Shown: positions 23,082 to 61,816 of the stretch, one piece after another | How the letters are laid out: every line of letters begins with the position of its first letter | How positions within the stretch are numbered: position 1 is the first letter of the stretch | DNA from: Marinosulfonomonas sp. | GTDB lineage: Bacteria > Pseudomonadota > Alphaproteobacteria > Rhodobacterales > Rhodobacteraceae | Direction: 5' to 3' | Assembly: GCA_026984915.1 (NCBI GenBank) | Contig: JALSRG010000106.1 | Location: 1 to 64,000, forward strand | DNA: 64,000 nt | Program-made: the position numbers and the translations under genes | Notes under the pieces: generated by a model | Told to the model about the DNA's origin: nothing | The model's database searches: none | Seen by the model: the letters and a program-made list of their open reading frames with translations, nothing else

Positions 23082-23732
23082 TTAATCCGCGCCGCTGGAA
23101 TCTTGCGGCAGCAAATGGGCGTGTCGCGCCATGAACCGGGCAATTTCACGCTCCGTCGGCGCTGTGCTGGTATACATTTCAACGTAAGAAGGCATCCACA
23201 ACAACCGCTCTTCCCACGGGTCCCTGACATTCATCGAGATATAGCCAACCTGTGCCAGATACACCGTATTGGCCCGCACAGTGGCGTTTTCAGCCCTATA
23301 GCCAAAACGCTGAAACATTTCTGATATGGCCAAAATACGTTGTGCATCCGCACTCCGGATGGCGCTTTCCACTTCATGGTCCTTTCTGGACCAGTTTCGG
23401 ACAGCGAAATCCAGGCGCGCATCAAACAGATCTTCGTCAACCCAGCAGTCAAACAGGTTGAACATCGCTTCGGTAATCGTGTCCGCATATTGTCTGGTTC
23501 GAGCGATCAGATTGCCGGTGTTTTTCTTCTCCCAAAGGGTCAGAAGCGCCGCAAGCAGGGCTTTTCTGTCTTTGAAATGCCAGTAAAACCCCGTGCGTGA
23601 AAGTCCCAGCGCCTTGGCCATTGGCATCACTTTCACCGCATCCACACCAGACGAAACCAGCAGATCATAGGCAACACTCAACCAGGCCTGCTCGGATCCG
23701 CGATGGCCGGTTCTTTCCCGTAATTCTTCCAT
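23082..23732 (-). CDS. TetR-family regulator of the methylated-amine island
   Basis: A 216-residue repressor-type protein. The N-terminal helix-turn-helix is AWLSVAYDLLVSSGVDAVKV followed by AKALGLSRTGFYWHFKDRKALL (residues 16-60), standard for TetR. The C-terminal ligand domain is helical and rich in aromatic residues and Arg. It is divergent from the first MttB-like gene, and a perfect palindrome lies in the gap between them, the classical layout for a ligand-released repressor of the neighbouring operon. The ligand is probably a substrate or intermediate of that operon, but this is inference. Confidence 0.9.
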   Translation of the reverse strand: MEELRERTGHRGSEQAWLSVAYDLLVSSGVDAVKVMPMAKALGLSRTGFYWHFKDRKALLAALLTLWEKKNTGNLIARTRQYADTITEAMFNLFDCWVDEDLFDARLDFAVRNWSRKDHEVESAIRSADAQRILAISEMFQRFGYRAENATVRANTVYLAQVGYISMNVRDPWEERLLWMPSYVEMYTSTAPTEREIARFMARHAHLLPQDSSGAD

Positions 23733-23770
23733 GTTCAGATTCAGGTACTCTCATTCGCAGGGCCATTTTT

Positions 23771-23788
23771 CTTGACATAAGTGTCAAG
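23771..23788. promoter_or_regulatory. Probable TetR operator between the regulator and mttB-like genes
   Basis: CTTGACA-TAAG-TGTCAAG is a perfect 7-bp inverted repeat around four bases, an 18-bp site of the size TetR dimers use. It includes a TTGACA that could also serve as a -35 element, so bound repressor would block transcription. It lies about 40 bases from the regulator start and 70 from the MttB-like start. A related TGTCAA half-site follows at 23803-23808. Confidence 0.6.
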
Positions 23789-23857
23789 CGTATCGACGAT
23801 AATGTCAATTCAAGATGAGTCGTTTGCCCTGCCGTCGCCAACTTCAAAGGAAACAGG

Positions 23858-25453
23858 ATGAAATCCGGCACCGAATCCACACAAACTACATCCCGCCGTC
23901 GCCGGACCGCGGGCGGCGGCCGGGCCGCGTTAAGGGCCAGGCGCATCGGTGGCGCCAGCACCTCGGCCGGCAGCGCAAGATCACCCTATATCACCCGGAA
24001 CATACCGCCCGTTGACCTGTTGGATGAAGAAGCGCTGGAGAAGATTGAGGCAGGAACAGAGACGATTCTTGCCGAAATCGGCATCGAATTTCGGGATGAT
24101 CCTGAAACGGTTGCGCTGTTTCGCGCGGCGGGTGGGCATGTCACCCCGATCAGCGCAACCGCCTGGAATATCCGGTTTGAGCCAGGGATGATTACGGAAA
24201 TTCTTCAGTCCGCTCCGGCGCGTTTTACCCAGCATGCCCGCAATCCGCAGAACTCGGTTGAAATCGGCGGGGATTCTGTCGTTTTTGCGCCTGCCTACGG
24301 GTCGCCGTTTGTCATGGATCTGGATAAGGGCCGGCGGTACGGAACGCTTCAGGATTTCGAGAATTTCGTGAAACTTGCACAGAGTACACCGTGGTTGCAC
24401 CATTCCGGCGGCACGGTTTGTGAACCAACAGACATCGCGGTCAACAAACGTCATCTCGATATGGTCTATGCGCATATGCGCTATTCGGATCGTGCCTTCC
24501 TGGGTTCGGTCACAGCACCCGAGCGGGCAGAGGACAGCATCGACATGTGCCGCATCCTGTTTGGGGAGGATTTTGTCGCGCGCAATTGTGTAATCATGGG
24601 TAATTTCAACTCTACCTCGCCGCTGGTCTGGGATGGGATTTCGACCAGGGGCATTCGCGCCTATGCGGCGGCAGGTCAGGGATCCATCCATTTACCCTTC
24701 CTGCTGGGGGGTGCGGTTTCGCCGGTTACAATCCCTGGCGCCATTGCCCAAAGCATGGCAGAATCTCTGGTCGGCTGCGCCTTGACACAACTGGTAAAAC
24801 CAGGCAGTCCGGCTGTGTTAGGCTCTTTTATTGCCTCTCTTTCCCTCCGCTCGGGCAGCCCGACATTCGGTACGCCGGAACCGGCTCTCGGGTCACTTGT
24901 GGTCGGCCAGCTTGCCCGGCGGGCGAAACTTCCGCTGCGTTGTGCGGGTAACTTTTCCACCTCCAAGCTTCCGGATGGTCAGGCCATGTCGCAGGCGGTG
25001 ATCTCCATGACATCCGCAATCCAGTCCGGCGCACATTATATTCTGCACGCGGCCGGCTTTCTCGATGGCCTGCTGTCCATGTCCTATGAAAAGTTCATGA
25101 TGGATGTCGATCTTTGCGCGGCCCTGCATGCCTATCTGAACGGGCTTGAGGTGAGCGACGACACGCTCGGCCTGGAATCTTTGCGCGAAGGCGGCCCTGG
25201 TGCGCATATGTTCGGTTCTGCCCATACGCTTGCCCATTACGAAACCGCCTATTGGGACAGCGCCCTGAATGATGACCGCCCTTACGAAACCTGGAGCGAA
25301 CATGGTCGTGAAGACTGTATGCATCGCGCCAATCGACAGTGGAAGAGCACACTGGAAACCTATGAAGCCCCCTTGCTGGAAGAATCCAGGGATGAGGCCC
25401 TGAAAGAATTCATTGCCAGAAAGAAATCATCCATGGAAGATGCCTGGCATTGA
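23858..25453 (+). CDS. MttB-family methyltransferase, non-pyrrolysine, copy 1
   Basis: A 531-residue member of the trimethylamine:corrinoid methyltransferase (MttB) superfamily. The first ~45 residues are low-complexity and rich in Arg, Gly, Ala and Ser; the TIM-barrel part starts near LLDEEALEKIEAGTETILAEIGIEF and includes GSVTAPERAEDSIDMCRILFGE, LLGGAVSPVTIPGAIAQSMAE, and SGAHYILHAAGFLDGLLSMSYEKFMMD. The frame has no internal TAG, so it is not the pyrrolysine-containing archaeal type; non-pyrrolysine members include the glycine betaine methyltransferase MtgB. It probably removes a methyl group from a quaternary or tertiary amine. No corrinoid-binding protein gene is nearby. First gene of the four-gene plus-strand operon; AAAGGA precedes the ATG. 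Confidence 0.88.
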   Translation: MKSGTESTQTTSRRRRTAGGGRAALRARRIGGASTSAGSARSPYITRNIPPVDLLDEEALEKIEAGTETILAEIGIEFRDDPETVALFRAAGGHVTPISATAWNIRFEPGMITEILQSAPARFTQHARNPQNSVEIGGDSVVFAPAYGSPFVMDLDKGRRYGTLQDFENFVKLAQSTPWLHHSGGTVCEPTDIAVNKRHLDMVYAHMRYSDRAFLGSVTAPERAEDSIDMCRILFGEDFVARNCVIMGNFNSTSPLVWDGISTRGIRAYAAAGQGSIHLPFLLGGAVSPVTIPGAIAQSMAESLVGCALTQLVKPGSPAVLGSFIASLSLRSGSPTFGTPEPALGSLVVGQLARRAKLPLRCAGNFSTSKLPDGQAMSQAVISMTSAIQSGAHYILHAAGFLDGLLSMSYEKFMMDVDLCAALHAYLNGLEVSDDTLGLESLREGGPGAHMFGSAHTLAHYETAYWDSALNDDRPYETWSEHGREDCMHRANRQWKSTLETYEAPLLEESRDEALKEFIARKKSSMEDAWH

Positions 25454-25465
25454 AGGAGAGAGCCG

Positions 25466-27502
25466 ATGTCCAATGACCCCCTATTGCAGCCTTACCAGCT
25501 AAAGAATCTGACTTTGCGCAACCGGATCATGACCACCAGCCATGAACCCGCCTACCCCGAGGACGGCATGCCCAAGGATCGCTACCGCGCCTATCACGAG
25601 GAACGCGCCAAGGCGGGTATTGCCCTCGCGATGACAGCCGGTTCCGCGTCAGTGGCCAGGGACAGCCCGCCGTCTTTCAACAATGTGCTGGCCTATAAAG
25701 ACGAGGTTGTGCCATGGATCCAGCGCCTGACCGATGCCTGCCATGAACATGGCGCAGCGGTGATGATCCAGCTTACACATCTGGGGCGGCGCACCCGCTG
25801 GGACAAAGGTGACTGGCTACCGGTGGTCACGCCTTCGCACAGGCGCGAACCGGCACACCGGGCTTTTCCCAAAAAGCTTGAGGACTGGGACATCGCCCGC
25901 ATCATCACCGATTACGCCGATGCCGCCGAACGGATGCAGGCCGGTGGCATGGACGGGATTGAACTCGAAGTATTCGGCCATCTGATGGACCAGTTTATAT
26001 CGCCGCTGACCAACACGCTTGACGCGCCCTATGGCGGCACGCTGGAAAACCGGATGCGGTTCTCCATGGATGTTCTGCGTGCTATCCGCAAACGGGTGGG
26101 GGACGATTTCATCGTCGGCATGCGCTTTACCGTGGACGAGGCGCAACAGGGCGGCATCACATTCGAGGACGGGATCGAAGTGTGCAACACATGGCGCGAC
26201 AGCGGCATGGTCGATTTCCTCAATGTCATTCGTGGCCGCATCCATACTGATCCGGCAATGACCGATGTGATCCCGGTTCAGGGCATGAAAAACGCCCCGC
26301 ATCTGGATTTCGCCGGATCGGTGCGCAAGGCCACCGGCCTGCCCACCTTCCACGCCGCCAAAATCCCCGATGTCGCCACCGCCCGCCACGCTGTTTCCGC
26401 CGGTTTGCTGGATATGGTCGGCATGACCCGCGCCCATCTGGCTGACCCGCATATCGTGCGCAAAATCACTGAGGGGCGCGAGGATGATATCCGCCCTTGC
26501 GTCGGTGCCACCTATTGTCTGGACCGGATTTATCAGGGCGGAGAGGCCCTGTGCATGCACAATGCCGCCACCGGGCGCGAACTGACCATGCCGCATGACA
26601 TCCCGCCCGCAAAGACCCGCAAGAAAGTGGTGATCGTCGGCGCAGGCCCCGCCGGGCTGGAAGCCGCCCGCGTGGCCGCCGAACGGGGCCACAGCGTGAC
26701 AGTGCTGGAAGCCGCTGCCGACCCCGGCGGGCAGGTCCGCCTGACCGCGCAAAGCCCGCGCCGGCGAGAAATGATCAGCATCATTGATTGGCGCATGTCC
26801 CAATGCGCCGCCCGTAATGTGGATTTCCGTTTCAACACCTGGGCCGAGGCCGAAGATATCACCGCCTTCGCCCCCGATGTGGTGATCATCGCCACCGGCG
26901 GCCTGCCCGATACCGAAGTGCTGGAAACCGGCAATGATCTGGTTGTGTCCAGTTGGGATATCATCGCCGGTGACGTGAAACCAGGTGAAAACGTGCTGAT
27001 CTACGATGACGCGGGCGACCACCCGGCCCTGCAGGCCGCCGAAGTAATCGCCAACAGTCGCGCGCATGTCGAGATCATGACCCCTGATCGCACATTTGCC
27101 CCAGAAATCATGGGAATGAACCTCGTGCCCTACATGCGCAGCCTTCAGGACAAGGATGTCAGTTTTACCGTCACCCGCCGCCTGTTGGGGGTAGAGCGTG
27201 ACGGCAATCTCTTGCGCGCCACCATCGGCACTGATTACAGCGATTTTCGCAGTACAGCGACTTATGACCAAATCGTTGTAAACCATGGAACACTTCCGCT
27301 TGACAGTCTCTATTTCACCCTGAAATCGTATTCCATCAACTTTGGTGAAGTGGATTATGACGCCCTGATCGCGGGTCGGCCGCAAACCATTACCAGCAAC
27401 CCCGACGGGGTGTTTCAGCTGTTCCGCATTGGCGATGCGGTTGCGGCCCGCAATACGCATGCCGCAATCTACGACGCGCTGAGACTGGTAAAAGACCTAT
27501 GA
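25466..27502 (+). CDS. Old-yellow-enzyme / trimethylamine dehydrogenase-like demethylase
   Basis: A 678-residue flavoprotein with the layout of trimethylamine dehydrogenase, 2,4-dienoyl-CoA reductase and N-methylproline or dimethylglycine demethylases: an FMN TIM-barrel (residues 1-~340, PYQLKNLTLRNRIMTTSHEP), a Cys-rich iron-sulfur segment, and a C-terminal dinucleotide-binding region (KKVVIVGAGPAGLEAARVAAERGHSVTVLE). The iron-sulfur motif reads C345, A348, C351, C363: the second of the four usual cysteines is Ala. The 4Fe-4S cluster may thus use another ligand or be missing. It probably oxidatively demethylates a tertiary or quaternary amine and passes electrons on. It follows copy 1 of mttB by 12 bases. 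Confidence 0.87.
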   Translation: MSNDPLLQPYQLKNLTLRNRIMTTSHEPAYPEDGMPKDRYRAYHEERAKAGIALAMTAGSASVARDSPPSFNNVLAYKDEVVPWIQRLTDACHEHGAAVMIQLTHLGRRTRWDKGDWLPVVTPSHRREPAHRAFPKKLEDWDIARIITDYADAAERMQAGGMDGIELEVFGHLMDQFISPLTNTLDAPYGGTLENRMRFSMDVLRAIRKRVGDDFIVGMRFTVDEAQQGGITFEDGIEVCNTWRDSGMVDFLNVIRGRIHTDPAMTDVIPVQGMKNAPHLDFAGSVRKATGLPTFHAAKIPDVATARHAVSAGLLDMVGMTRAHLADPHIVRKITEGREDDIRPCVGATYCLDRIYQGGEALCMHNAATGRELTMPHDIPPAKTRKKVVIVGAGPAGLEAARVAAERGHSVTVLEAAADPGGQVRLTAQSPRRREMISIIDWRMSQCAARNVDFRFNTWAEAEDITAFAPDVVIIATGGLPDTEVLETGNDLVVSSWDIIAGDVKPGENVLIYDDAGDHPALQAAEVIANSRAHVEIMTPDRTFAPEIMGMNLVPYMRSLQDKDVSFTVTRRLLGVERDGNLLRATIGTDYSDFRSTATYDQIVVNHGTLPLDSLYFTLKSYSINFGEVDYDALIAGRPQTITSNPDGVFQLFRIGDAVAARNTHAAIYDALRLVKDL

Positions 27503-27560
27503 GACCCCGATACGCGACAGGTCGAGGCACTGCATCACATCGAATTTCCAGAGGACCGGC

Positions 27561-29963
27561 ATGAAATCATCCTACAAGGCAGTTGTGATAGGCGGAGGCG
27601 TCGTTGGCGCCTCGGTCATGTATCACCTGACAAGGCTTGGCTGGTCTGATGTCGCACTGATCGAGCGCGCCGAGCTGACAGCGGGGTCAACCTGGCACGC
27701 GGCGGCGGGGTTTCACCCGCTGAATGCCGACCCGAATATTGCGGCTTTGCAGGATTACACGATCAACCTCTATAAACAGATCGAGAAGGAAAGCGGCGTT
27801 GATTGCGGCCTGCACATGACCGGCGGTGTCAATATTGCCTCTGATCCGGCCCGGTGGGAACAGTTAAAGGCGGGGTGGGCCACCTTTCAGGCCATTGGCG
27901 TCAATACGGCCCGGCTGGTGACGCCAGACGAAATTGATGCGTTGACAGGCGGCATGATCAGAACCGACGACCTGTTGGGCGGGTTATATGATTCAAACGA
28001 GGGTTATCTGGATCCGAATGGGACCACTTACGCCTATGTTGGTGCTGCCAGAAAACGCGGCGCCGACCTGATCCTGCGCAATCGAGTACTTGAGTTGGAT
28101 CAACGCGGCGATGCTACATGGAACATTGTCACTGAAAAAGGCACTATTCAGGCCGAACACGTGGTCAATGCGGCCGGGTTGTGGGCCAAGCAGGTTGGCC
28201 GGATGGTGGGTGTCGACCTTCCTGTTACACCGATGGAGCACCACTATCTGGTTACCGATTCAATCGAAGAGCTGGGCCATCTGCCCGGTGAACTGCCGAA
28301 TGTCATTGATCTGGATGGCTTCACCTATGCCCGCCAGGAACGCGATGGCCTTTTGCTCGGGGTTTACGAACTGAACCCGAAACACTGGCATATGGACGGG
28401 GCCCCGTGGGATTATGGCATGGAACTGATCCCCGAGGATATAGACCGGATCAGCCCGCAGCTCTCCAAGGGGTTTGAGCGGTTTCCGGTTCTGGCCCGCA
28501 CCGGCATCAAGCGCTGGGTGAACGGGGCCTTCACCTTTGCCCCTGACGGCAACCCGTTGGTTGGCCCTGTCGGGCCACGCGGATACTGGGTGGCCTGCGG
28601 GGTTATGGCCGGTTTCTGTCAGGGCGGCGGGGTTGGTAAATCCTTGGCAGAATGGATGATTCGGGGTGAAACAGAGACTGATATATTTGGAATGGACGTG
28701 GCGCGCTTTGGCCTGCATCAGTCAAACAAGGAATACATCCGCCAGACCACCGGTCAGTTCTATTCGCGCCGGTTCGTGCTGACATTTCCCAACGAACAAC
28801 TGCCGGCAGGCCGCCCCCTGCGCGTTGCCGGCGCCTATCGCGACATGACAGAGGCCGGGGCGCGGTGGGGTACAAGCTGGGGGCTGGAAGTGCCGCTCTA
28901 CTTTGCACCAACGCCCGATTTTGAGGAACCCGGAACCGCCAGACGATCCGCCGCCTTCCCCATCATTGCCGACGAATGCCGGGCCGTGCAAAACGCCGCG
29001 GGCCTGCTCGATATCACCGGATTTTCGAGGTTTGAGGTCAAGGGCCCGCATGCCAGGGCCTGGCTCGACAGGATTTTGGCCTGCCGCCTGCCGGACAGAG
29101 GCAAGATTGCGCTTGCCCCCATGCTCGCCCCGGATGGCCGCCTGAAGGGCGATCTTACATGTCTCAACTGGGGGAATGGCACCTATTGGCTTATGGGATC
29201 CTACTATCTGCGCCGGTTTCATATGCGCTGGTTTGACGCTCATAGACAGTCCGGCGTCATGGTGCAGGATATATCCGATCATGCCGCCGGGTTTTCCGTC
29301 AGCGGGCCAAATGCCCGCAAGGTTCTGCAAAAGCTGACAGATACAGATCTTTCCGGCCTGTCGATGATGTCCTGCAAGACTGTCGATCTGGGGCTTTTCC
29401 GGGTAAATCTGGCGCGGCTCTCGCTGTCGGGTGAGTTGGCATATGAGATCAACTGCCTCTCGTGCGAACATGCACCATTGCGCCAGGCTCTCCTCTGGGC
29501 GGGGGCCGGTCTGGGATTGCGCGAAATCGGCTTTAACGCCATGCTTTCCCTGCGTCTCGAAAAGAGTATCGGCATCTGGAACGCCGAATATACCCAGGGC
29601 TACACCCCCGCCATGACGCAGCTTGACCGGTGGATCGACTGGCAGAAAGATGACTTCATCGGCAAAGGTGCTGCTGCCGCCTCCCGGCCCCCGGACCGGA
29701 TTCTGACCATGCTGGACGTCGCGGCAGATAATGCGGATTGCGCAGGGTTTGAGCCGGTTTGGAAGGATGGCTCCCTGGTTGGCATCACCACATCGGGTGG
29801 TTATGGGCACCGTTTGACGCGCAGTTTTGCGCTAGCGCTTGTTGACAGGGGCCATGCCCGCCCCGGAACAGAGCTGATTGTTCATGTGATGGGCGAGGAA
29901 CGCCCGGCCCGCGTCATTGAAATGTCACCTTACGACCCGTCAGGTACCAGGATGAGGGCATAG
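27561..29963 (+). CDS. Dimethylglycine/sarcosine dehydrogenase-like flavoprotein
   Basis: An 800-residue protein of the mitochondrial DMGDH/SARDH type. The FAD-binding N-terminal half starts AVVIGGGVVGASVMYHL and has GSTWHAAAG, where H46 corresponds to the histidine that carries covalent FAD in the family. The C-terminal half (from about 430) is a GcvT-like aminomethyltransferase fold, with GFSRFEVKGPHARAWLDRIL and LRLEKSIGIWNAEYTQGYTPAMTQLDRWIDW, which in relatives binds tetrahydrofolate and traps the released formaldehyde as methylene-THF. It would demethylate dimethylglycine, sarcosine or a similar N-methyl compound made by the other island enzymes. It is 58 bases after the flavoprotein gene and 5 bases before the second mttB. 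Confidence 0.88.
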   Translation: MKSSYKAVVIGGGVVGASVMYHLTRLGWSDVALIERAELTAGSTWHAAAGFHPLNADPNIAALQDYTINLYKQIEKESGVDCGLHMTGGVNIASDPARWEQLKAGWATFQAIGVNTARLVTPDEIDALTGGMIRTDDLLGGLYDSNEGYLDPNGTTYAYVGAARKRGADLILRNRVLELDQRGDATWNIVTEKGTIQAEHVVNAAGLWAKQVGRMVGVDLPVTPMEHHYLVTDSIEELGHLPGELPNVIDLDGFTYARQERDGLLLGVYELNPKHWHMDGAPWDYGMELIPEDIDRISPQLSKGFERFPVLARTGIKRWVNGAFTFAPDGNPLVGPVGPRGYWVACGVMAGFCQGGGVGKSLAEWMIRGETETDIFGMDVARFGLHQSNKEYIRQTTGQFYSRRFVLTFPNEQLPAGRPLRVAGAYRDMTEAGARWGTSWGLEVPLYFAPTPDFEEPGTARRSAAFPIIADECRAVQNAAGLLDITGFSRFEVKGPHARAWLDRILACRLPDRGKIALAPMLAPDGRLKGDLTCLNWGNGTYWLMGSYYLRRFHMRWFDAHRQSGVMVQDISDHAAGFSVSGPNARKVLQKLTDTDLSGLSMMSCKTVDLGLFRVNLARLSLSGELAYEINCLSCEHAPLRQALLWAGAGLGLREIGFNAMLSLRLEKSIGIWNAEYTQGYTPAMTQLDRWIDWQKDDFIGKGAAAASRPPDRILTMLDVAADNADCAGFEPVWKDGSLVGITTSGGYGHRLTRSFALALVDRGHARPGTELIVHVMGEERPARVIEMSPYDPSGTRMRA

Positions 29964-29968
29964 ATACC

Positions 29969-31516
29969 ATGCAACCCCCGACATCACACGGCCGGCCTGA
30001 AAGGCGTCGCAACCGGCGGGGCGCAAAGCCATCGTCCGGCTCCCGAAAGCCCGACTATATACATCTGAAACACCCGTTTCAGCCTCAGTCGATTTTTTCC
30101 GCGGACGAGGTCAATGCCATTCACAACACCGCCCTGCGGGTTTTGCAGGACCTGGGCATAAAGATCCTGTTGCCCGAAGCGCAGAAAATCTTTGCGGATG
30201 CGGGTGCGGTTCTCAACGATGACAATATGGTTTTCATCGGTCGTGACATCGTTGAAGCCGCTTTGCAAACCGCCCCGTCCTCATTCCGTCTGCGCGCCAT
30301 TAATCCGGCACATGAACATGATTATGCCGACGGAACCCTGTTGTTCATGGCTGGCTCGGGGTGCCCCAACAACACCGATTTTGAGCGTGGCCGCCGCCCC
30401 GGCTGCCTGCGCGACTTTGAGGAAACCATCAAACTCGCCCAGAGTTTTGATGTCATCCACCTGTTTGGCGCATCGGCCGAACCGCAGGATATTCCCATTC
30501 AGTTTCGTCATTACGAAACAATGCGCACACAACTGGAATTTGGCGACAAGCCCCTGCATATCTACGCGCGTGGGCGTGGTCAGGTCTTTGATGCCTTTGA
30601 GATGATCCGGCTGGGTCTGAACCTTTCCGATGACGAATTCACCGGCAATGTCTGGCTGAACACGGTGATCAATTCGAATTCTCCGCGAATGCTCGACAAA
30701 CCCATGGCGCAGGGGATCATGGATTTTGCCCGCGCGGGGCAGATGACCATCATAACGCCTTTCTGTCTGGCTGGCGCCATGGCGCCGATCACAATCGCCG
30801 GCGCCCTCACCCTGCAACATGCCGAGGCCCTGGCCTGCATCACCCTTGCGCAACTCTCCCGGGCCGGCGCGCCCGTCAGCTATGGCGGTTTCAGTTCAAA
30901 TGTTGACATGAAATCCGGCTCACCTGCCTTTGGCACCCCCGAACATGTCAAAATGCAGATCGGAACCGGGCAATTGGCCCGACACATCGGGCTGCCCTGG
31001 CGCTCGGCCACGGGAACGGCCGCAAACACGCCTGATATGCAGGCGGCAACAGAAACCGACATGGCGCTTTGGGGAACGATGATGGCAAATGCGACACTGA
31101 CACTGCACGCGGCCGGTTGGCTGGAGGGTGGGCTGAGCTTTGGCTATGAAAAGTTCATCAACGATATAGAGGCCCTGCAAACACTGGCCGAGCTATGTTT
31201 GGTCACCAGAGCGAATGCTGACGAAATCGGGTTTGACGCCCTTGCCGACGTTCAGCCCGGCGGGCATTTCTTTGCCACCCGACATACGATGGACCGCTAT
31301 CAGACTGCCTTTTACGAACCGGTCGTTGCCGACCTGAACAATATCGGGACATGGGAGGAAGCCGGCTCCAAAACTTCGGCGGAAAGGGCAACAGAAATCT
31401 GGAAACGTATTTTGGCCGAGTTTGTTTCACCGCCAACAGGAGAAGAAGCCGCCGACCGTGTGCAGCCCTTCATCCGCAAGAGAAAATCCGAAGGCGGCGC
31501 ACACCCTTTGGAATAG
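29969..31516 (+). CDS. MttB-family methyltransferase, non-pyrrolysine, copy 2
   Basis: A 515-residue second member of the MttB superfamily, distant from copy 1. It again has a basic, low-complexity N-terminus (RRRNRRGAKPSSGSRK), followed by FSADEVNAIHNTALRVLQDLGIKIL, FCLAGAMAPITIAGALTLQHAEAL, and GYEKFINDIEALQTLAELC. The frame is open without TAG. A second paralogue in the same operon suggests two methyl-transfer steps or two substrates. It starts five bases after the dehydrogenase gene and is the last gene of the operon, ending 27 bases from the convergent PstS/OmpA gene. Confidence 0.87.
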   Translation: MQPPTSHGRPERRRNRRGAKPSSGSRKPDYIHLKHPFQPQSIFSADEVNAIHNTALRVLQDLGIKILLPEAQKIFADAGAVLNDDNMVFIGRDIVEAALQTAPSSFRLRAINPAHEHDYADGTLLFMAGSGCPNNTDFERGRRPGCLRDFEETIKLAQSFDVIHLFGASAEPQDIPIQFRHYETMRTQLEFGDKPLHIYARGRGQVFDAFEMIRLGLNLSDDEFTGNVWLNTVINSNSPRMLDKPMAQGIMDFARAGQMTIITPFCLAGAMAPITIAGALTLQHAEALACITLAQLSRAGAPVSYGGFSSNVDMKSGSPAFGTPEHVKMQIGTGQLARHIGLPWRSATGTAANTPDMQAATETDMALWGTMMANATLTLHAAGWLEGGLSFGYEKFINDIEALQTLAELCLVTRANADEIGFDALADVQPGGHFFATRHTMDRYQTAFYEPVVADLNNIGTWEEAGSKTSAERATEIWKRILAEFVSPPTGEEAADRVQPFIRKRKSEGGAHPLE

Positions 31517-31543: not shown

Positions 31544-33103
31544 CTATTTCAGCCAGACTTCGACCCGTCGGTTCACGCGACGCCCCCAGTCTTCGTCATC
31601 ACAGGCCATCGGCATCGCTTCGCCAAAGGCCTCAACCTGTATGGTCAGGCGTGACGCATCCAATGCAGGCGCCGCCTTCAGAACCGCATCCCTGACCGCA
31701 TTTGCCCGTTTTCTTGCAATACGCATATTCGCATCCGCCCCGCCATCACCATCCGTAAACCCGGCAAAGATCAGCGTCCTGTCCTGATAGGCTCCGGCTT
31801 CGAGCAGTTGCGCAAGCTGCTCGATATTGGTTCGCGATTGCACATCGAGTTTTGTCGATCCTGTCTGGAAGCGAAATGTAATCGAAAGCCGCCTTGCCGA
31901 TTGCAGAACCGCAACCATCCGTTTCAAATCTTCCAATGTGATTTCGTCTCCCGCCGCCGCAATGGCGTTTGCCAACCGCGCGCCCTGGGCTTTCAGCGAA
32001 ATTTCGACCGGGCGCTGATCAACAAACCCGGCGCGGCGAACCACTTGCTGCGCGGAAGGTGAACGAAGGTAGCGGATGAAATCCCGCGCGGTTTTCGGCA
32101 GACGGCGGGCTGGTGTGTACAACAGTAACGGCGCCGTCAGGGGATAGTCCTCGGTTTTCAGGTTGAGCACGGTCGGGCGAATCGAAAACCCACAAGCCCC
32201 CGTCAGCGACAACACCTTGGTGTTGCCAACCTCGGAATAGCTGGAAATCCCGATGGCAAAGGGATCTTTGGCAACGGCATCGACCAGCTCTGCATTGCTG
32301 TTGTGCAGTATGACGTTCTTTGCAAAACCAAGCCCGAAAATGCGCATTGCCTTATCCTCAAAGCTCTGCGCCATCCCCGCGTTCATGGTGCGAAGGTGCA
32401 GCGCAATGGGCGCATCCGGCCCGCCCAGATCCGCCCAGTTTTTCACCTCGCCAGCAAAGACAAGCGCCAGCGCCTTCAGCGAAATGCCGGAAAGCGTGTT
32501 TCCGGGCGCCACCACCGGCACCAGACCATCCAGCCCGATAATCCGGCTCCGGTTGGCGGCGGACAAATCCCCCAGCCCGACCTCTCGTGCGCGCCTGATT
32601 TCATCTGGCCGCAACTCGCGCAGGGCCATCATCATATCGGATTCATCAGCCAGCAGATCGGCGAAGCCTTCATCCGTGTTGGTGTTGTGAAAGGAAATTC
32701 GCGCAACCGTACGCCCTGTTTCGGGTTGGCTCAGGATATAGGAAAACTTTCGGTCGGACTGGACCGTTCTTCGCAATTTCATTCCATTATGTCGGGCGAA
32801 TGATTCGACCAGCGCCGGCATCAGAATATCGCCCATGGTGCGCGCACCTGAAATGCGTATTTCAGCGACATATCCCTTCAGGTCGGGACATCCCGGTCCG
32901 GCACAGGTTACGCCCGACCCATCCAGTGTCAGTTCACCGAACACCGTATCGACCCGGTAGAATTCGCCGTCATACCCAAGCAGAGTGCCGGCAACCTCGA
33001 CCGTTCCGTCGCGGGATGTCAATGTCACATCCTGAGCCGCCAAAGGGCCGCCGGTCGTTAAAATGAAAAGTGCGGCGAGTACCGCCGCACGAAACTTGTT
33101 CAT
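31544..33103 (-). CDS. PstS-like substrate-binding protein fused to an OmpA domain
   Basis: The 519 residues comprise a signal peptide (AALFILTTGGPLAAQ), a periplasmic-binding module like phosphate-binding PstS (residues ~80-370, RISGARTMGDILMPALVESFARHNG, KALALVFAGEVKNWADLGG, KDPFAIGISSYSEVG), and a C-terminal OmpA/MotB peptidoglycan-binding domain (SITFRFQTGSTKLDVQSRTNIEQLA through RVEVWLK). It should sit in the periplasm, tethered to the cell wall, holding a small ligand. No ABC transporter genes are adjacent. It follows the unknown anchored protein by 24 bases on the same strand and may be cotranscribed with it. Confidence 0.88.
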   Translation of the reverse strand: MNKFRAAVLAALFILTTGGPLAAQDVTLTSRDGTVEVAGTLLGYDGEFYRVDTVFGELTLDGSGVTCAGPGCPDLKGYVAEIRISGARTMGDILMPALVESFARHNGMKLRRTVQSDRKFSYILSQPETGRTVARISFHNTNTDEGFADLLADESDMMMALRELRPDEIRRAREVGLGDLSAANRSRIIGLDGLVPVVAPGNTLSGISLKALALVFAGEVKNWADLGGPDAPIALHLRTMNAGMAQSFEDKAMRIFGLGFAKNVILHNSNAELVDAVAKDPFAIGISSYSEVGNTKVLSLTGACGFSIRPTVLNLKTEDYPLTAPLLLYTPARRLPKTARDFIRYLRSPSAQQVVRRAGFVDQRPVEISLKAQGARLANAIAAAGDEITLEDLKRMVAVLQSARRLSITFRFQTGSTKLDVQSRTNIEQLAQLLEAGAYQDRTLIFAGFTDGDGGADANMRIARKRANAVRDAVLKAAPALDASRLTIQVEAFGEAMPMACDDEDWGRRVNRRVEVWLK

Positions 33104-60581: not shown

Positions 60582-61816
60582 ACGACGAACTCGGCAATCG
60601 TTTCATCATTTGTGATGTCGCTATAAGTAAATCCGCTCTCGTCCATTTTCGCAAACAGACTGTCAAAATTTCGCGTATCAGTCGTCTCTATCCCGATCAG
60701 GACCGAGCCAAAATTTCGTGCTGATTTCTTCATATACTCAAAGCGGGCAATATTATCATCCGGTCCGAGAATCGAAAGAAAGTCCTTTAGCGCCCCCGGA
60801 CGTTGCGGCAAGCGCAGAATCAAATATTTCTTCAGCCCCAGATGGCGCTGGGCGCGTTCCTTGACCTCGGGCAGGCGCTCAAAATCAAAATTGCCGCCCG
60901 AGGTAATACAAACCACGGTTTTACCTTTGATCTGATCAGACAAGGTGGGTAACGCATCAACCGCCAACGCGCCGGCGGGCTCCAGAACGATACCTTCGAC
61001 ATTCAGCATTTCCACCATCGTGGTGCAAATACGATCCTCGGGGGCCAGCAGTACGTGTTCCGCCGGAATATCCCGTAAAGCCTTGAAATTTTCCTGGCCA
61101 ATGCGGGCCACGGCAGCCCCATCGACAAAGCTGTCAACCTTGTCCAGCGTCACGGGTTTGCCGGCAGCAATTGCGGCGGTCAGGCTGGGGGCTCCGGCGG
61201 GTTCAATATAGCGCAACGCCGTTTCCGCTGCCCGCTCGGACAGGTACAACCTGACGCCCGAAGCCAGCCCGCCACCGCCAACCGGCAACACCACCATATC
61301 CGGCGCACCACCCAGTTGTTTCAGTATTTCCACCGCGATAGAAGCCTGGCCTTCGATCACATCCGGGTCGTCAAAGGGGGCCAGAAAATGCGCGCCCACC
61401 TCTGTGCAGTAAGACTGAGCCGATGCAAGTGTATCATCGAAATAATCCCCGATCAGCCGGATTTCGATATTGTCCCCGCCGAAAATCCGGGTCTTGTTCA
61501 CCTTTTGCTGTGGTGTGGTGACGGGCATGAAGATCACCCCTTTCACCCCGAAATGACGGCAGACAAAAGCCACCCCCTGCGCGTGGTTCCCGGCGCTTGC
61601 GCAAACAAAAACATCCTGATGATCCACCACCTTTCGCATCGCATTCAGTGCACCGCGGATTTTATAGGAGCGCACCGGCGACAGATCCTCGCGCTTCAAC
61701 CATATATTTGCGTCAAACCGCTTGGAAAGATGGTCGTTTCTCTGCAATGGTGTCGGATCGAACAACGTGCGCATCGCGGCCGTTGCCGTCTGCGCCTTGT
61801 CGGAAAACGCGCTCAC
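60578..61816 (-). CDS. ilvA: Threonine ammonia-lyase
   Basis: A 412-residue PLP enzyme that converts threonine to 2-oxobutanoate, the first step to isoleucine. The PLP lysine is in VRSYKIRGALNAM, the phosphate loop in PVGGGGLASGVRLY, and CASAGNHAQGVAFVC is characteristic. The C-terminal ~85 residues form one ACT-like regulatory domain (LILRLPQRPGALKDFLSIL), fewer than the two of E. coli IlvA. It starts overlapping the stop of the membrane-protein gene (ATGA). Confidence 0.94.
   Translation of the reverse strand: MSAFSDKAQTATAAMRTLFDPTPLQRNDHLSKRFDANIWLKREDLSPVRSYKIRGALNAMRKVVDHQDVFVCASAGNHAQGVAFVCRHFGVKGVIFMPVTTPQQKVNKTRIFGGDNIEIRLIGDYFDDTLASAQSYCTEVGAHFLAPFDDPDVIEGQASIAVEILKQLGGAPDMVVLPVGGGGLASGVRLYLSERAAETALRYIEPAGAPSLTAAIAAGKPVTLDKVDSFVDGAAVARIGQENFKALRDIPAEHVLLAPEDRICTTMVEMLNVEGIVLEPAGALAVDALPTLSDQIKGKTVVCITSGGNFDFERLPEVKERAQRHLGLKKYLILRLPQRPGALKDFLSILGPDDNIARFEYMKKSARNFGSVLIGIETTDTRNFDSLFAKMDESGFTYSDITNDETIAEFVV

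Follow-up and report, generated by a model that had tools for sequence, protein, structure and literature searches.

The window, by which we mean the entire stretch of 64,000 nucleotides analyzed here from a contig (JALSRG010000106.1) of Marinosulfonomonas sp., contains four plus-strand genes separated by gaps of 12, 58 and 5 bases, with a TetR-family regulator encoded divergently from them. With this operon the bacterium, a roseobacter relative, appears to carry a gene set for the demethylation of proline betaine by a vitamin-B12-type enzyme. The regulator lies on the minus strand (23082-23732; PF00440, TetR_N, 32.2 bits against a cut-off of 24). The first half of the operon encodes MttA (23858-25453, 531 amino acids), a non-pyrrolysine member of the MttB superfamily and candidate proline-betaine (or hydroxyproline-betaine):corrinoid methyltransferase, and an N-methyl-L-proline demethylase of the HpbA/StcD type (25466-27502, 678 amino acids), here termed HpbA, which combines an FMN old yellow enzyme (OYE) domain (PF00724, 176.7 bits) with Rossmann domains. 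The second half encodes a dimethylglycine dehydrogenase (DMGDH)-type flavoprotein (27561-29963, 800 amino acids) with DAO, FAO_M, GCV_T and GCV_T_C domains, including a folate-binding GcvT half, and its conserved partner MttB2 (29969-31516, 515 amino acids), another non-pyrrolysine MttB-superfamily protein from a clade other than that of MttA. Between the regulator and MttA lies a perfect palindrome, TTGACATAAGTGTCAA (23772-23787), probably a TetR site, with a second operator-like site bearing one mismatch 21 bases downstream (23793-23808). A chance arrangement can be ruled out because these genes and their order are conserved in other genomes.

Both MttB proteins are full-length members of PF06253 (688 bits for MttA and 582.2 for MttB2, against a cut-off of 25). 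The pyrrolysine-dependent trimethylamine methyltransferase is excluded as an identity for either of them, since the pair scores 231.6 and 253.2 bits against TIGR02369, well short of its cut-off of 525, and neither MttB frame has an in-frame stop or amber codon. The open reading frames and Pfam matches thus bear out what the first-pass annotation had described at the locus, namely four closely spaced genes under a divergent TetR, two non-pyrrolysine MttB proteins and a DMGDH-like flavoprotein with a folate-binding half. The host genome (3.16 Mb in 127 contigs) has four copies of PF06253, two in the operon, one on C69 and one on C31; the last (C31:14791-16275) is very distant (166 bits) and has a long branch in the tree. 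In this tree of 54 rows, which is rooted at the midpoint and carries a warning for three long branches, MttA falls in a 19-row clade (support 100/100) that is sister to a clade with PDB entry 4yyc and the C69 copy from the same genome, while MttB2 falls in a separate 19-row clade (98/100). The entry 2qne, which we take to be MtgB of D. hafniense, lies outside both the MttA and the 4yyc/C69 clades, so that MttA is not grouped with it, as far as a midpoint root and long branches allow. Matches of 44-50% to the C69-type paralog occur in 34 of 37 same-family genomes, with or without MttA. This wide presence regardless of MttA, together with its separate clade with 4yyc, makes the C69-type a better candidate for a general function.

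The OYE-like protein had first been described as a trimethylamine dehydrogenase (TMADH)-like flavoprotein. An oxidative demethylase with an FMN OYE domain it remains; TMADH itself could be discarded as an identity as the ligand set for the Fe-S cluster, which we take to be Cys-x2-Cys-x2-Cys followed by a further Cys, is incomplete. At the position of its second Cys the window protein has Ala, as do 72 of 73 distinct HpbA-like sequences of at least 65% identity, the remaining one having Gly. With this second Cys of the TMADH/FadH type missing, the cluster may be absent or unusual in HpbA-like proteins. A protein encoded on Sinorhizobium medicae pSMED01 shares 74% identity with HpbA over 678/678 amino acids. 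The S. medicae gene has a single DNA match (85.8%) in the S. meliloti 1021 record NC_003078.1, presumably pSymB; it also matches a psymB-labeled record (H103), and one strain's record carrying the gene is labeled pSymA. StcD is, we assume, 678 amino acids long. The available text of PMC12239276 places stcD, encoding N-methylproline demethylase, on pSymB. Among the matches listed, 7 of 60 plasmid rows, from Paracoccus, Rhodobacter and Thioclava, are annotated as 'hpbA, N-methyl-L-proline N-demethylase' and align over their full length at 69.6-73.7% identity; the remaining listed rows have a generic name or none. In P. aminovorans and Rhizobium NXC14 such homologs are accompanied by a gene of the pyrroline-5-carboxylate (P5C)-reductase type, by an ABC transporter for glycine betaine/proline and by a TetR encoded divergently, and an OpuAC binding protein gene adjoins the S. 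medicae gene. Judged by its sequence, the OYE-like gene is a homolog of HpbA/StcD, of the N-methyl-L-proline demethylase family, and the first half of the operon therefore points to proline-type betaines. In two related loci (L042 and L044) HpbA is 90-91% identical to the Marinosulfonomonas protein, with MttA at just 78% and TetR at 65-67%, an uneven divergence that perhaps reflects recombination.

The association of MttA with HpbA extends well beyond the window. The best 80 of 394 loci with MttA relatives (L035-L114; 66-78% MttA identity) come from Rhodobacteraceae, Kiloniella, Anderseniella, a metagenome-assembled genome of Hyphomicrobiales and Gammaproteobacteria such as Motiliproteus. HpbA is encoded at 68% identity or more in 62 of them, and a TetR homolog (at least 45%) in 48, with LysR in its stead in some others; the arrangement TetR-MttA-HpbA is also found in Ruegeria pomeroyi strain SZCCDBG043 (L064). 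We further examined co-occurrence in 149 genomes of the same family, counting MttA at E <=1e-190, HpbA at E <=1e-230 and the Stc2-type Rieske homolog at 54% identity or more, the last threshold having been chosen within the 38 genomes with a match. Matches of 33-44% to the Rieske protein, seen in 10 of these 38, were left aside, two of them (G009 and G110) lying about 1 kb from HpbA; one retained match (G104) has an internal TGA. MttA was recovered in 28 genomes, HpbA in 80 and the Rieske homolog in 28. HpbA is present in all 28 genomes with MttA, albeit at merely 59-61% identity in three, versus 52 of the 121 without it (Fisher p = 2.5e-9, related genomes being counted as independent), and it is likewise present in 25 of the 28 Rieske genomes. 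The window's own genome has no match to a Stc2-type Rieske gene at E 1e-60. In the open-license literature that was searched we found no report of an MttB-family protein paired with HpbA/StcD, or linked to proline betaine in aerobes.

Contextual information from neighboring genes, gathered by tblastn at 1e-25 on the 80 MttA loci (9 of them shorter than 10 kb), is consistent with a substrate of this kind. A proline- or betaine-type gene occurs near MttA in 37 of the 80 loci versus 1 of 26 loci of other MttB proteins (20 of MttB2 and 6 of the C69-type), a contrast flattered by the fact that the queries were taken from MttA or HpbA neighborhoods. The most frequent is a P5C-reductase-like gene (26 loci), followed by an enolase-superfamily gene (4), a proline racemase family gene of the trans-3-hydroxyproline dehydratase type (3), Stc2-type Rieske and OpuAC genes (2 each), and OCD-family, ProX and P5CR-dimer genes (1 each). 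A stretch of about 13 kb in Rhodobacter sp. CZR27 holds an ortholog of MttA (67%), ProVWX, a TetR divergent from hpbA, and a Rieske-type gene accompanied by its reductase. Some of these neighbors would also fit if the natural substrate of MttA were a 3- or 4-hydroxyproline betaine, or another cyclic betaine, with proline betaine being secondary and the mechanism unchanged. The proline racemase family gene in three MttA loci speaks for this, as do the proline racemase family and OCD-family genes that flank HpbA on a Pseudosulfitobacter plasmid and the enolase-superfamily gene that separates HpbA from MttA in three loci of Kiloniella. Yet such genes are found in a minority of loci, the named HpbA homologs bear the name of N-methyl-L-proline, and the enolase-superfamily protein best matches PDB isomerases of unnamed function rather than an identified betaine epimerase, so we regard a hydroxylated or other cyclic substrate as a possible but clearly less probable alternative. 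The enolase-superfamily gene stands directly after MttA in L035, L036, L038 and L061, and could possibly encode a betaine epimerase; an equation with the known hydroxyproline-betaine epimerase was dropped, the PDB matches being those just mentioned (best 60 of 172). A reading of the locus as a homarine operon was also set aside, as literature listings gave no link between homarine and these families.

The palindrome upstream of MttA has the form TTGACA-N4-TGTCAA. Its generalized version, TYGACA-N4-TGTCRA, has an exact match in the 250 bases preceding MttA in 27 of the 45 loci where TetR is divergent, versus none of 36 others. Within one mismatch it is found in 31 of the 45, the window included, and in 1 of the 36; it is absent in its exact form from shuffled sequences. 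The TetR protein thus probably binds at this putative operator. A related palindrome, TRKACA-N4-TGTCYA, lies upstream of 24 of 34 DMGDH homologs as an exact match and of 28 of the 34 when one mismatch is allowed, compared with 0.03 in shuffles. Both sets of counts are somewhat flattered because the patterns were chosen after the sites had been seen. The DMGDH gene of the window was kept out of these 34 and examined separately: the 250 bases before it hold no related palindrome (best 4 mismatches), and the gene is therefore probably co-regulated with MttA. The operator pattern has another exact match in the window, at 61122-61137, probably by chance. Promoter- or terminator-like sites at the locus were not in excess of shuffles. 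Directly past the operon, on the opposite strand, lies a gene for a phosphate-binding-like protein fused to an OmpA domain (31544-33103).

The second half of the operon has its own history of conservation. Among the matches listed for the same 149 genomes, MttB2 (50% identity or more) is found in 47 and the DMGDH (56% or more) in 46, with both present in 38 (p = 4e-19), and the DMGDH lies immediately upstream on the same strand for 27 of 48 MttB2 copies. MttA, in turn, is associated with neither MttB2 (p = 0.37) nor the DMGDH (p = 0.26). On plasmids the pair recurs as DMGDH-MttB2-TetR in Gemmobacter fulvus, as DMGDH-MttB2-ABC binding protein with a divergent TetR in Mesorhizobium, and in a further example in Leisingera; Rhizobium tumorigenes has a TetR and DMGDH with no annotated MttB gene alongside. 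In Leisingera caerulea a cytochrome P450 gene (L237:11411-12640) lies between DMGDH and MttB2. Genomes with the Stc2-type Rieske gene rarely have MttB2 (3/28, p = 0.007) or the DMGDH (2/28, p = 0.003). The DMGDH itself aligns over its full length with PDB dimethylglycine dehydrogenase (residues 5-797 with 4pab) and has the FAD motif 'ELTAGSTWHAA' with its His; none of the 25 NCBIfam models listed for it exceeded its cut-off.

The operon is hence composed of two modules, each occurring separately elsewhere, and a check of gene neighborhoods across relatives did not recover the four genes as one conserved set. The first-pass annotation took the genes to remove methyl groups stepwise from a single amine; demethylation of methylated amines is supported, whereas a single pathway for one compound is improbable, since the halves occur apart elsewhere and MttA is unassociated with MttB2 or the DMGDH. 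The case for all four enzymes sequentially stripping one compound, e.g. glycine betaine or another trimethyl betaine, draws on the short gaps, which suggest a single transcript, on the operator-like site missing before the DMGDH (at least 4 mismatches), and on one MttA locus of the 80 (L049) that encodes an MttB2 homolog (52%) on the opposite strand, at a distance of about 5 kb. Against this, of the six genomes with all four genes only the window has them together, the DMGDH is found at 40% identity or more in none of the 80 MttA loci, the two MttB proteins fall in different, well supported clades, and the proline- or betaine-type queries matched just once in 20 MttB2 loci (from the 48 copies). 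Furthermore, the two methyls of proline betaine would already be accounted for by MttA and HpbA. We accordingly consider a single shared substrate improbable, and the MttB2-DMGDH pair is predicted to act on a betaine other than that of the first module. Still less credible is that MttA is a glycine-betaine methyltransferase (MtgB) paired with HpbA by coincidence: PF06253 does include MtgB and MttA aligns with 2qne (residues 44-523, E ~1e-104) and with 9yce (49-523, E ~1e-103), named glycine betaine methyltransferase in PDB, but the presence of HpbA in all 28 MttA genomes and the better-suited C69-type paralog count heavily against it.

As to where the methyl groups go, left open by the first-pass annotation, the genome offers a narrower choice without fully settling the matter. 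On C40 a DUF1638 protein and a homocysteine methyltransferase are encoded together with a B12-binding_2 protein that contains the stretch DIHDIGKN, and on C66 a RACo-type activase is encoded together with a pterin-binding protein; the corrinoid, pterin, activase and DUF1638 families are represented by family-level matches to PF02607, PF00809, PF14574 and PF07796. PF02607 is matched just once in the genome, as would be expected of a split methionine synthase. These genes are candidates for an acceptor core of the MtgC-, MtgD-, RamA-, DUF1638- and MtgE-types. In R. pomeroyi, according to the available part of PMC12478193, mutants reveal that both the use of glycine betaine and the synthesis of methionine require MtgC and MtgD, two pfam06253 proteins are raised on N-osmolytes, and further pfam06253 ORFs (up to seven) are suggested to act on other compounds. 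Similarly, the accessible text of PMC8604678 describes several MttB-superfamily proteins of Eubacterium limosum that share one corrinoid protein. The annotation had recognized no known pathway in this gene set, which holds in part: aerobic demethylation of the MttB type has been published (PMC12478193), and it is the pairing of MttB with HpbA that the searched literature did not contain.

Combining these lines of evidence, we consider a proline-type betaine the probable substrate of MttA, with the corrinoid core as the route of demethylation and with a lesser share of this expectation falling to the hydroxylated form as the main substrate. In the mechanism that we infer from sequence, the substrate of MttA would be proline betaine (N,N-dimethylproline) or a hydroxylated relative, and the acceptor of one of its N-methyl groups would be the Co(I) corrinoid on an MtgC-type protein that is shared and encoded outside the operon. 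An MtgD-type pterin protein would carry this methyl on to tetrahydrofolate, with RamA/DUF1638-type proteins re-reducing the corrinoid. HpbA would then oxidatively remove the second methyl, converting N-methylproline to proline. The first demethylation would thus fall to MttA here, a step that a Stc2-type Rieske oxygenase can perform in some relatives. MttB2 may take one methyl off another betaine, probably a trimethylated one, and a further methyl may be oxidized by the DMGDH-type enzyme, with the formaldehyde passing to tetrahydrofolate through the GcvT half. The TetR would repress the operon from 23772-23787 and probably 23793-23808. More broadly, we lean slightly towards a picture in which many Alphaproteobacteria and some Gammaproteobacteria break down proline betaine by an oxygen-independent, cobalamin-dependent MttA step that feeds the split methionine-synthase core, and then by HpbA, in a route alternative to that of Stc2, while a TetR-linked DMGDH-MttB2 pair serves another betaine, the two regulons having merged under one TetR in the window.

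Several observations weigh against the mechanism proposed above for the operon. No proline- or betaine-type gene of those sought was found in 43 of the 80 MttA loci, the hydroxyproline-type neighbors leave room for 3- or 4-hydroxyproline betaine, 18 of the 80 show no HpbA within the locus stretch examined, and 13 of the 45 TetR-linked loci have three or more operator mismatches. A strict replacement of the Rieske protein by MttA is unsupported in the 149 genomes (p = 0.21): exclusivity is not shown because 6 genomes have both and 33 of the 80 HpbA genomes have neither, and relatedness is uncorrected throughout the Fisher tests. The nearest PDB entry to MttA, 4yyc, names no substrate, and the gene before the pterin protein, putatively MetF-like, had no Pfam match at 1e-8.

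Proline betaine is an osmolyte of plants and algae. If the proposed role of MttA holds, it would join the B12-dependent metabolites of aerobic bacteria, and the use of an algal and plant osmolyte would be tied to methionine synthesis via the corrinoid core that both share. A second regulon would be delineated by the DMGDH-MttB2 pair together with the two types of operator, which opens the way to a search for its substrate. A specific and testable substrate would also be provided for one group of the 'trimethylamine methyltransferase family' that was left open by the available account in PMC12478193.

Of the components involved, the corrinoid core, MtpB and HpbA/StcD are already known; what appears to be new is that a clade of MttB proteins, paired with HpbA, would take the position otherwise held by the Rieske demethylase. 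With the HpbA/StcD systems (stcD of S. meliloti and hpbA of Paracoccus and Rhodobacter) the window shares full-length identity of 69.6-74% and a divergent TetR, to which P. aminovorans and Rhizobium NXC14 add the transporter and P5C-reductase-type genes; it differs in having an MttB-family protein as the upstream partner and in that its genome has no Stc2-type Rieske match at E 1e-60. The Rieske protein that served as query, encoded beside HpbA in Roseivivax, matches PDB 3vca (E 6e-152), which the available text of PMC4014116 identifies as stachydrine demethylase. Stc2 would achieve the same outcome as is proposed for MttA, with proline betaine losing its first methyl, but it is an unrelated protein that uses oxygenase chemistry instead of methyl transfer to a corrinoid. 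The MtgBCD system of R. pomeroyi resembles that of the window in combining a PF06253 protein with MtgC-, MtgD-, MtgE-, RamA- and DUF1638-type genes in the genome; its substrate, in the part of PMC12478193 at hand, is glycine betaine, whereas MttA sits with HpbA. MtpB of E. limosum is likewise a non-pyrrolysine member of the MttB superfamily, described as moving a methyl from proline betaine via corrinoid to tetrahydrofolate, but it belongs to an anaerobic acetogen and the accessible text (PMC8604678) mentions no HpbA partner. Finally, the DMGDH-type protein of the window, known by its sequence, resembles dimethylglycine dehydrogenase (PDB 5l46, 4p9s and 4pab) in its full-length alignment and FAD motif, and is set apart from it by the frequent gene partner of its type, MttB2.

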